NCBI RefSeq assembly: GCF_947503705.1
Contig: NZ_CANNES010000001.1
Span: forward strand, 248,001 to 312,000
Source of the DNA: an uncultured Tateyamaria sp.
Lineage (GTDB): Bacteria > Pseudomonadota > Alphaproteobacteria > Rhodobacterales > Rhodobacteraceae
DNA: 64,000 nt
Reading direction: 5' to 3'
Shown here: positions 37,303-38,441 of the stretch, in pieces
Layout: the number at the start of each line of letters is the position of its first letter
Numbering within the stretch: the first letter of the stretch is position 1
Made by a program: the position numbers and the translations under genes
Notes under the pieces: generated by a model
Databases searched by the model: none
What the model was told of the DNA's origin: nothing
What the model saw: the letters and a program-made list of their open reading frames with translations, nothing else

Positions 37303-37307
37303 ATTCG

Positions 37308-37313
37308 TTGACT
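37308..37313 (+). promoter_or_regulatory. Possible -35 element (TTGACT) of the small RNA locus
   Basis: TTGACT lies 44 bp before the extended ribosome-binding site and 5 bp after the transporter stop. No good -10 sits at the usual spacing (TATGCG is too close at 11 bp), so this is a weak call. The locus may instead be read from the transporter promoter. Confidence 0.25.
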
Positions 37314-37356
37314 TTTGGCGTGGCTATGCGACGCTGAAGGTGAGTTCAACAAATGT

Positions 37357-37372
37357 AAAGGAGGTGATCCAG
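37357..37372 (+). promoter_or_regulatory. Extended Shine-Dalgarno, 16 nt complementary to the 16S rRNA 3' end
   Basis: AAAGGAGGTGATCCAG is the exact complement of the standard bacterial 16S rRNA 3' end (CTGGATCACCTCCTTT). The last G is already the first base of the GTG start. Ordinary sites in this window match 4-7 bases. AGGAGGT (37359-37365) can alternatively pair perfectly with ACCTCCT at 37483-37489, which would hide the site. Confidence 0.75.
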
Positions 37373-37489
37373 TGTCAAGAAAGGTATTGGAGCGAGGTGT
37401 CGGAACAACTTGGGAGGTCGCCTGCTAGGGCAGCCCCGCGCGGTGCAGACCGCCAAGTTGGTCGGTTGACCTAACCGACACAACCTCCT
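37359..37489 (+). ncRNA. Candidate structured regulatory RNA enclosing a micro-ORF
   Basis: Nested helices are visible: 37359-37365 with 37483-37489 (7 bp), 37397-37403 with 37475-37481 (7 bp) and 37406-37413 with 37453-37460 (8 bp). Small inner hairpins also form, such as CTGC/GCAG at 37422-37433. The hairpin GTCGGTT/AACCGAC at 37461-37479 uses bases of the second helix, so two folds compete. The closing helix covers the ribosome-binding site. An intrinsic terminator follows 14 bases later. I cannot match it to a known RNA family. Pairing was found by eye, not by a folding program. Confidence 0.55.
37372..37428 (+). CDS. Putative 18-residue microprotein or leader peptide
   Basis: GTG start directly after the extended ribosome-binding site; the product reads MSRKVLERGVGTTWEVAC. 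Basic N-terminal part, one Trp and a C-terminal Cys. The TAG stop lies in the loop of an inner hairpin. No downstream gene on this strand before the terminator, so it is not an obvious attenuator leader for a neighbour. The ORF may be translated for its product, or its translation may control the fold of the RNA. Too short for any family assignment. Confidence 0.5.
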   Translation: MSRKVLERGVGTTWEVAC

Positions 37490-37503
37490 GAAACCATTCG
37501 ATT

Positions 37504-37533
37504 GGGCCGCACTCCAGGGTGCGGCCCTTTTTT
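37504..37533 (+). terminator. Intrinsic terminator
   Basis: A perfect 9-bp stem, GGGCCGCAC with GTGCGGCCC, loop TCCAGG, is followed directly by six T. This is the clearest Rho-independent terminator in the window. It ends the small-RNA locus, and any read-through from the transporter gene, before the convergent STAS gene. Confidence 0.92.
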
Positions 37534-37553
37534 GTCGAATATGGCATCAAAGA

Positions 37554-37949
37554 TCAGGCCGCAGCGGCATGCGCCTGCAACGAACGCCACGCCACATCCT
37601 CGGTGCCAAAGGTTTCGGCCTGCACTGGCAGGATTTTGTCCATGAACGCGATCATCTTGTTGGCACGGTCCGGTGCGCCGACAACCACATAACGGTTCAC
37701 GTTGCTGATGGCCTTGAACCGGCTTTTGAGAACATCCCAGTCCCAGCCTGCGCCCAGTTCAGCGCCGTCGAAGTGGTCAAAGATCATCAGCATGTCGATT
37801 TTTTCCGAGTGCGCGTCGAAGGCCGCATTCATATATTTTGCCATGTCTTCCATGGCATCATCGCTGATCTCGCCGCTGATGCGAAACGCGTAAAGATCGG
37901 GGCGGTTGGTTGCAATCTGGGTGATGCCTTTTGTGTTCAACACTGTCAT
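37554..37949 (-). CDS. STAS/SpoIIAA-like domain protein
   Basis: 131 residues, cytosolic. The layout NLYAFRISGEIS..DMAKYMNAAF, MLMIFDHFDGAELGAGWD and NRYVVVGAPDRANKMI is that of the SpoIIAA-like STAS/SEC14-type fold (PF11964), with alternating strands and helices. These proteins have no known enzyme activity; some bind lipids or nucleotides. It stands alone and is convergent with the small RNA locus. Confidence 0.82.
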   Translation of the reverse strand: MTVLNTKGITQIATNRPDLYAFRISGEISDDAMEDMAKYMNAAFDAHSEKIDMLMIFDHFDGAELGAGWDWDVLKSRFKAISNVNRYVVVGAPDRANKMIAFMDKILPVQAETFGTEDVAWRSLQAHAAAA

Positions 37950-38018: not shown

Positions 38019-38441
38019 ATGCTGCGCATCAATGACGAGATCATCTTGCAGGATTGGGAACTGAGCGAGCAGTTCGTCCGTTCGTCCGGCCCAGGTGGGC
38101 AAAACGTGAACAAGGTGTCCTCTGCCGTGGAACTGCGGTTTGAGGCGGCGCGTTCGCCGTCTTTGGCCGGTCCGGTCAAGACGCGGTTGAAACGATTGGC
38201 GGGCCGCCGTTGGACCCTGGAAGGGGCGCTGATCATCCAATGTGACGAGACCCGAAGCCAGGCCCGCAACCGCGATATCGCTCGTGACCGCCTGGCCGAC
38301 TTGATTCGCAAGGCCCTTGTCGCCCCCAAACGCCGTATCGCGACCCGCCCGACGCTGGGGTCCAAGAAACGACGGTTGAAGGCCAAGAAAGTGCGCGGCG
38401 AAGTCAAGTCGATGCGCGGCCGCGTCGATCCGGAGGATTAG
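38019..38441 (+). CDS. arfB: Alternative ribosome-rescue peptidyl-tRNA hydrolase ArfB
   Basis: 140 residues from MLRIND, matching E. coli ArfB length; an ATG at 38004 is also possible. The catalytic SGPGGQNVNKVSSAVELRF near residues 21-39 contains the GGQ loop of class I release factors. The basic C-terminal tail (KKRRLKAKKVRGEVK) enters the empty mRNA channel of stalled ribosomes. It frees nascent chains from non-stop complexes. Divergent from the STAS gene. Confidence 0.95.
   Translation: MLRINDEIILQDWELSEQFVRSSGPGGQNVNKVSSAVELRFEAARSPSLAGPVKTRLKRLAGRRWTLEGALIIQCDETRSQARNRDIARDRLADLIRKALVAPKRRIATRPTLGSKKRRLKAKKVRGEVKSMRGRVDPED

Follow-up and report, generated by a model that had tools for sequence, protein, structure and literature searches.

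A putative regulatory mini-mRNA with an extended Shine-Dalgarno element and an 18-codon reading frame in Alphaproteobacteria

Results

An RNA locus upstream of arfB

The window, that is, the whole stretch of 64,000 nucleotides that was analysed, carries downstream of a Vut_1 transporter gene (yhhQ/queuosine type) a dense series of RNA elements, followed by a SpoIIAA-like gene and an arfB-type gene (Table 1). All the elements named in an earlier note on this DNA, namely the Shine-Dalgarno (SD) element, the ORF, three helices, a hairpin and a terminator, were found again at the same coordinates. A further hairpin, which buries the start codon, had been overlooked there.

The promoter boxes of Table 1 were read from the letters and, if used, would place the transcription start near position 37342. 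TTGAC-like and ACNNT-like boxes with the same spacing were seen by eye upstream of many of the printed loci of the family, although a sigma-70 consensus scan of the window found no promoter. We consider it likely that the RNA has its own promoter. The 3' end is formed by a terminator, as in the Rfam family RF01867 discussed below. A similar locus was found in all 20 genomes of the genus, the organism's own included.

Table 1. Features of the RNA locus and its downstream neighbours (window coordinates)
Feature	Position	Strand	Remarks
Likely promoter, TTGACT and -10-like GACGCT	37308-37313 and 37330-37335	+	Read from the letters
Shine-Dalgarno (SD) element, AAAGGAGGTGATCCAG	37357-37372	+	Complementary to the 16S 3' tail
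Start-codon hairpin, UCCAGUGUC / GGUAUUGGA	37368-37391 (37368-37376 with 37383-37391)	+	In the MFE fold
18-codon ORF, GTG start, TAG stop (37426-37428), peptide MSRKVLERGVGTTWEVAC	37372-37428	+	
Helix A, 5' strand GTGTCGG	37397-37403	+	Codons 9-11; partner CCGACAC at 37475-37481
Helix B, 5' strand CAACTTGG	37406-37413	+	Codons 12-14; partner CCAAGTTG at 37453-37460
Stop-codon hairpin region	37416-37451	+	In the MFE fold; arms flanking the stop covary
Helix B, 3' strand CCAAGTTG	37453-37460	+	In the MFE fold; covaries
Local hairpin, competitor of helix A	37461-37479	+	In the MFE fold
ACCTCCT, SD partner (pairs with AGGAGGT, 37359-37365)	37483-37489	+	MFE fold, covariation and pairing probability
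Intrinsic terminator	37504-37533	+	Stem 37504-37527 plus T run
SpoIIAA-like gene	37554-37949	-	Between the RNA and arfB
arfB-type gene, RF-1 domain, GGQ motif	38019-38441	+	Minus-strand gene 37554-37949 between it and the RNA

The SD element matches the 16S rRNA tail

The stretch complementary to the 3' end of 16S rRNA is 16 nt long in the window and 15-17 nt in most relatives; by 16S numbering, the SD element thereby covers almost all of the free tail beyond helix 45. This 3' end (CTGGATCACCTCCTTTCTAAGG / ...GGCTGGATCACCTCCTTTCTAAGG) was read in two of the nine genomes searched, those with a 16S match, one belonging to the family of the window and one to the class. Since no 16S match was found in the organism's own assembly, the 16-nt match claimed earlier is borne out on the 16S of two relatives and extends to this organism by inference. 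The SD 16-mer is single-copy in the organism's genome, where the window locus is also the best match to the 15-mer GAAAGGAGGTGATCC, with one mismatch, the next among the matches listed having two. For comparison, Schrader et al. (PMC4117421) report an SD site before only 24.6% of Caulobacter coding sequences.

We rejected an origin of the element as a reverse-complement fragment of a 16S gene: the match stops at 16 nt, and the motif with its start codon recurs at unrelated places.

Positions -16 to -2 of the element are near-invariant in the 123 loci of the family set and in 142 class loci, while outside the family (142 class loci) both position -1 and the initial base of the start codon are variable. 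In the interior (-15 to -2), 58 changes retain pairing with 16S as G-U and 7 break it; the 58 are not independent, 37 of them being A to G at -5, a position where the locus-picking script left A or G unpenalised and so slightly favoured the wobble change. At the edge (-16), 19 changes break the pairing.

Because the loci were found through the SD motif, its conservation is partly an effect of discovery, and the search was therefore repeated with a query beginning downstream of the start codon. This SD-free query matched 65 of the 149 family genomes at E up to 0.01, some of the matches being weak and lying elsewhere in the genome. The best 30 of the 65 were fetched, the window's own locus among them, and all 30 carry AGGAGGTG together with an 18-codon ORF. 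In L087, a divergent locus of the family, the GATCC part is missing and the start codon is TTG, yet the 18 codons are retained.

Opening the SD site is predicted to cost about 11 kcal/mol against a 16S duplex of about -32 kcal/mol (medians of the family-type rows), the corresponding values for the window locus being 11.9 and -28.6 kcal/mol. The median probability that the SD is unpaired is 0.01 in the family vs 0.16-0.35, depending on the group, outside it.

Start, frame and stop of the ORF are selected

For the ORF we used 123 unique loci, made up of 108 from the family of the window, 14 named loci chosen by ORF type, and L056 from another family. Exactly 18 codons were found in 99 of the 108 family loci. 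Across all 108, codon 19 is TGA (43), TAG (42), TAA (14) or another codon (9), never TGG. The codon table holds 115 rows, with L056, L233, L250, L251, L260, L262, L292 and L293 left out (four of these eight also have 18 codons). In 109 of its rows codon 19 is a stop (TAG 48, TGA 48, TAA 13), the other six holding no TGG either, where independence of the two positions would predict about 21 TGG. Fisher's test for the missing TGG gives p = 2.9e-19, a value that is overstated because it treats the rows as independent. On a tree built from 109 rows the type of stop changes at least 30 times. The length from start to stop is fixed, while between the stop and the 3' anchor there are 37 to 67 nt, with all residues modulo 3 represented (102 rows).

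The encoded residues follow another pattern. In codons 16-18, positions 1 and 2 are as variable as position 3, and codons 13-15 vary in amino acid (115 rows in both cases). Conservation is higher in codons 2-12, many of which coincide with predicted paired bases; at codon 2 the third base is free and Ser is retained in 112 of the 115 rows. Stop codons thus interchange without passing to TGG while codons 13-18 vary, from which we infer that the start, the frame and the stop of the ORF are under selection and that the peptide mostly is not. A conserved functional peptide, as in a dual-function sRNA, was looked for and not found, codons 16-18 being unconstrained and codons 13-15 variable. The 18-codon ORF of the earlier note is therefore real in the sense of a selected start and stop (99 of 108 family loci), and the microprotein that it had offered as one option is weakened by the variation of codons 13-18.

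Loci of the Sphingomonadales type encode a different peptide, MSHGSA..., with 18 codons in 33 of 38 unique rows, or in 33 of 35 once L057, L060 and L174, the three longer genes, are set aside; these three were also left out of the pairing test on this set. In the Bradyrhizobium type the ORF has 14 codons (7 of 7), and in the other clade types 18-36.

Some single observations may be recorded here. In codons 3-12 of the window locus (37378-37407), the conserved AGA, GTA/ATA, TTG, AGA and ACA look, by impression, rare for genomes of this kind, and slow decoding could matter. A Bradyrhizobium-type locus on a viral contig (L315) has lost the stop of its 14-codon ORF, the frame being two codons longer. 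One genome (G031, contig 1) holds two exact copies of the motif, at 805113 (+) and 2922049 (-), with ORFs beginning MSHCHALN... and MSHGSAKG....

A predicted fold that hides the ribosome-binding site

The predicted fold of the window RNA is more stable than all 200 of 200 shuffles (z -4.5 over 202 nt, z -4.2 over 151 nt). The MFE fold holds the SD:CCUCC pairing, the start hairpin, helix B, the stop hairpin and the local hairpin; helix A, which is an alternative to the local hairpin, is absent from it.

Covariation was tested without an alignment on 102 of the 115 rows, the 13 rows without a 3' anchor being left out, and the z values are only guides because the shuffles ignore relatedness. Helix B, represented by 81 distinct helices, scored 17.70 against 12.57 for shuffled pairs (sd 0.28, z about 18). 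The signal is modest for SD:CCUCC (z 4.0) and for the local hairpin (z 4.5) and weak for helix A (z 2.0), the negative control giving z 0.7. The stop hairpin scored 15.03 vs 12.57 shuffled (sd 0.24, 115 rows). For the start hairpin no covariation was found in the 102 rows (z -4.7), because one of its arms is invariant. In the partition function, SD:CCUCC, the start hairpin and helix B reach median pairing values of 0.96, 0.95 and 0.88 over the same 102 rows, against 0.09 for helix A and 0.13 for its competitor. An alignment of 70 of the 94 listed loci (A1), whose 3' part is misregistered by a base, served for viewing only.

Among the pairings named in the earlier note, covariation is thus strong for helix B and modest for SD:CCUCC. 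Of the two nested helices of that note, helix B covaries and belongs to the MFE fold, and helix A is weak and lies outside it. The switchable ribosome-binding site that it proposed stands as far as the site is predicted to be hidden; helix A and the local hairpin share a strand and covary weakly and modestly, so a switch is possible.

Outside the family, the pre-terminator segment pairs with codons 2-7 (P1; covariation 14.89 vs 12.20, sd 0.20), with compensating pairs such as CATTGTC/GACAATG, CATGGTT/GACCATG and ATGAGATT/AATCTCAT. This test covered the 142 of 156 loci that have a terminator and includes L060, which is also part of the SD position table. A generic search for start-region pairing in the other clades gave no excess (SHGS 17.14 vs 17.22; SHC 18.67 vs 18.75).

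Distant kinship with RF01867 across the class

An Rfam scan of the window returned no family at its gathering score. At a relaxed threshold, RF01867 (the CC2171 sRNA of Caulobacter) matched 37347-37527 with 35.9 bits (E 2.6e-6, 281 bases; gathering score 75), and the alignment is best in the SD/start block. The two RNAs share a 5' block, CAACAA..GAAAGGAGGUGAUCCAGUGUC, with the 16S-complementary SD and RUGUC, and they agree in having a similar size, a terminator and no class-wide neighbour. They differ in their closing pairs and their ORF, the score of the window lies below the gathering score, and the Rfam type of the family is sRNA gene. Moreover, the closing helix of RF01867, between codons 3-5 and the pre-terminator segment, was not found in the window, where the MFE fold has SD:CCUCC and helix B. 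We treat the window locus as a distant relative of RF01867 within one superfamily and do not claim formal membership. The statement of the earlier note that no described system has this layout does not hold, since RF01867 shares the 5' block, if at a weak score; the comparison with Rfam that it proposed yielded a relative, below the gathering score.

RF01867 was detected in 61 of 289 class genomes, in only nine of them above the cut-off, and Caulobacter vibrioides was positive among 14 control genomes. A second weak match in the organism's own genome (contig 8, 28.3 bits) lacks the motif and was taken as chance.

The motif AAAGGAGGTGATC-NN-RTGTC consists of the complement of the 16S tail followed by the start region. 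Searched as the pattern AAAGGAGGTGATCNNRTGTC with at most one mismatch, it was present in 94 of the 385 genomes sampled from the class, almost always as a single copy, with no control match among the rows. In a sample of 299 genomes of the phylum it was present in 51 of 86 genomes of the class, family included, and in 8 of 213 outside the class, all 8 with a mismatch and against two control matches there. The family genomes carry it in 117 of 149 cases at up to two mismatches (control matches in two). It was also found in 51 of the 61 class genomes positive for RF01867. Exact copies, among the matches listed, come from Sphingomonas, Novosphingobium, Bradyrhizobium, Methylobacterium, Mesorhizobium, Brevundimonas, Defluviimonas and a Dinoroseobacter bin; judging from such named matches, the sampled class would be Alphaproteobacteria and the family one within Rhodobacterales. 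At three loci (L057, L060 and L174, the last from a genome named Azospirillum) the motif goes with an ORF 40 or more codons long, which suggests a different protein gene; they are included in the 94 of 385 and in the motif counts of named genomes. Viral contigs gave six matches, three of the Bradyrhizobium type, two of the SHC type and one with a different ORF, and the first five are taken as host DNA.

As far as the papers that name it show, RF01867 is a known yet uncharacterised family: PMC11701678 names it as an RNA family and adds one covarying pair, and PMC5596092 has in a table a 215-nt sequencing product of Mesorhizobium huakuii, MH_s33, which is assigned to RF01867.

A probable link to arfB within the family

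An ArfB-type gene lies at all 20 loci of the genus; two overlapping sets of other family loci, together 51 distinct ones, have it in 23 of 30 and in 26 of 29 cases. It is downstream and on the same strand as the RNA in the genus set and in the 30-locus set, where orientation was checked. Among the 88 rows whose sequence includes arfB, the gap between terminator and gene is at most 128 nt in 72 and at most 77 nt in 60, with a median of 50 nt, all of these being lower bounds because the arfB starts were guessed. Gaps of this size often offer hardly any space for a promoter, and transcription therefore probably reaches arfB through the terminator in most family loci, with the RNA as its leader. 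A candidate antiterminator, in which the segment after the stop pairs with the 5' arm of the terminator, was unsupported (13.14 observed vs 13.63 shuffled).

The adjacency itself is weak evidence, since Vut_1 keeps its place no less consistently (20 of 20 in the genus, 29 of 30 and 28 of 29 in the two family sets) and the position of arfB may simply reflect gene order. The 60 class loci fetched from outside the family, which represent 50 distinct sequences and span about 3 kb apiece, contain no arfB; read-through into arfB is therefore not the general function of the RNA. In the window the opposite-strand gene cuts the link between the RNA and arfB, so that the RNA would act alone there. This SpoIIAA-like gene was found by tblastn at 7 of the 20 genus loci and at none in the other four groups examined, and with this patchy occurrence it may be a recent insertion. 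The earlier description of the transcript as free-standing accordingly suits the window and those class loci that lie outside the family; at most family loci, by contrast, arfB comes next on the same strand.

A conserved neighbour throughout the class, as a possible target, was sought and not found: the nearest flanking ORFs cluster almost only in close relatives, and both orientations occur downstream.

Two observations on the surroundings stand apart. In one locus of the Hyphomonadaceae (L149), ArfB (2519-2932, +) adjoins the RNA (2323-2343, -) in divergent orientation. Sphingomonadales-type loci (e.g., L046, L095, L135 and L186) have a GANTC site, often GANTCACA, about -50 to -85 from the SD; within 130 nt upstream, GANTC occurs in 34 of 41 loci and the GANTCACA form in 20 of 41, as raw counts, with three of the 41 loci probably being another gene. 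GANTC is the methylation site of CcrM, and cell-cycle control of the RNA is therefore possible.

Discussion

Our comparisons establish a selected start and stop, an SD element matched to the 16S tail, and covarying helices that translation would be predicted to open. The RNA itself is likely a separate structured transcript whose ribosome-binding site is hidden in the predicted fold. The explanation that we favour, and that we believe about as much as we doubt it, is that the locus is a regulatory mini-mRNA that would act by engaging ribosomes and not through its peptide, and that in the family it probably serves as a leader of arfB.

In such a mechanism, a 30S subunit would capture the RNA in competition with its internal SD:CCUCC pairing. 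The ribosome would then translate the 18 codons, opening the helices on its way, and terminate at a fixed point of the fold. The shape, the lifetime or the read-through of the RNA would in turn report how easily ribosomes start and finish. Our guess is that in most of the family the output would be read-through into arfB, with the translated RNA as leader, and that in the window and elsewhere in the class the RNA would work alone, as a decoy, via its stability or in trans. We count against this explanation that Schrader et al. (PMC4117421) report the ncRNA regions of Caulobacter to be untranslated by ribosome profiling, although by the same account two ncRNAs predicted earlier are translated. 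The less buried SD outside the family and the lack of excess in the generic start-region pairing test there also weigh against it.

Several other explanations have to be weighed against the mini-mRNA. The RNA might be a decoy or store that holds 30S subunits, its short ORF serving only to clear the RNA. The near-invariance of positions -16 to -2, next to a variable position -1 and first start base outside the family, would fit this idea, as would the SD changes that mostly keep G-U pairing with 16S (58 vs 7, rows not independent) and the strong predicted 16S duplex (about -32 kcal/mol in the median, -28.6 in the window locus). Placement of a start codon in the P site requires a certain spacing from the SD; here a fully formed duplex would end one base before the start codon, and the spacing would therefore be too small to reach the P site. 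On the other hand, the selection on a stop at codon 19 implies that ribosomes do translate the ORF, and we regard the decoy as unlikely. A different role would fall to the CCUCC segment if it were the seed of an sRNA for the SD sites of mRNAs, kept shut by the RNA's own SD and opened by ribosome binding. CCUCC/UCUCC segments are indeed the commonest partners of the SD in the 102 family-type rows, with the high median pairing given above; however, in the printed class-type loci no such segment was seen by eye at that place, and the pre-terminator segment pairs with codons 2-7 instead. We hold the seed function to be very unlikely.

The ORF bears on the remaining two alternatives from opposite sides. 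A gene for a functional microprotein of 14-26 residues would explain the selected start, frame and stop and the Ser kept at codon 2 in 112 of 115 rows with a free third base, but it is hard to reconcile with codons 16-18 that are equally variable at all three positions, with the changing amino acids of codons 13-15, with peptides that differ among the clade types and with several conserved codons that fall on paired bases; we consider it highly improbable. The least credible of these explanations is an RNA that escapes translation and owes the conservation of its motifs to structure alone: the helices do covary, yet the exchange of TAG, TGA and TAA without TGG and the fixed length from start to stop beside freely varying spacers would be left unexplained.

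Known systems resemble it in part. SgrS, Spot 42 and rnTrpL are dual-function sRNAs or small mRNAs and likewise are small separate transcripts with a short ORF and a strong structure, but what the window RNA keeps is the start and the stop, mostly not the peptide. The trp and tna leaders are ribosome-mediated transcription attenuators; like them, most family loci combine a short leader ORF and competing helices with a terminator ahead of a gene. The likeness ends where the one antiterminator candidate examined is unsupported and no stalling codons were identified, and neither the window nor the class loci analysed from outside the family would allow read-through into arfB. The CuckooCC/CcsR sRNAs of Rhodobacter, finally, carry a CCUCC segment and so share this feature of an alphaproteobacterial sRNA, but the window RNA has a single ACCUCCU, predicted to lie in a long-range stem, and no CCUCCUCCC in the locus.

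A bolder and rather doubtful extension would be a class-wide "test mRNA", an RNA that exists for ribosome engagement, pairs with almost all of the free 16S tail, has a content-free ORF translated up to a fixed stop and so reads or tests the 30S pool, wired in cis to ArfB in Rhodobacterales.

With these findings, a Caulobacter sRNA filed in Rfam gains relatives over much of Alphaproteobacteria and an extreme ribosome-binding site, and selection appears to act on where translation stops and mostly not on its product. If translation is confirmed, the locus would represent an RNA gene that is maintained for being translated as such, with a connection to ribosome rescue in one family.
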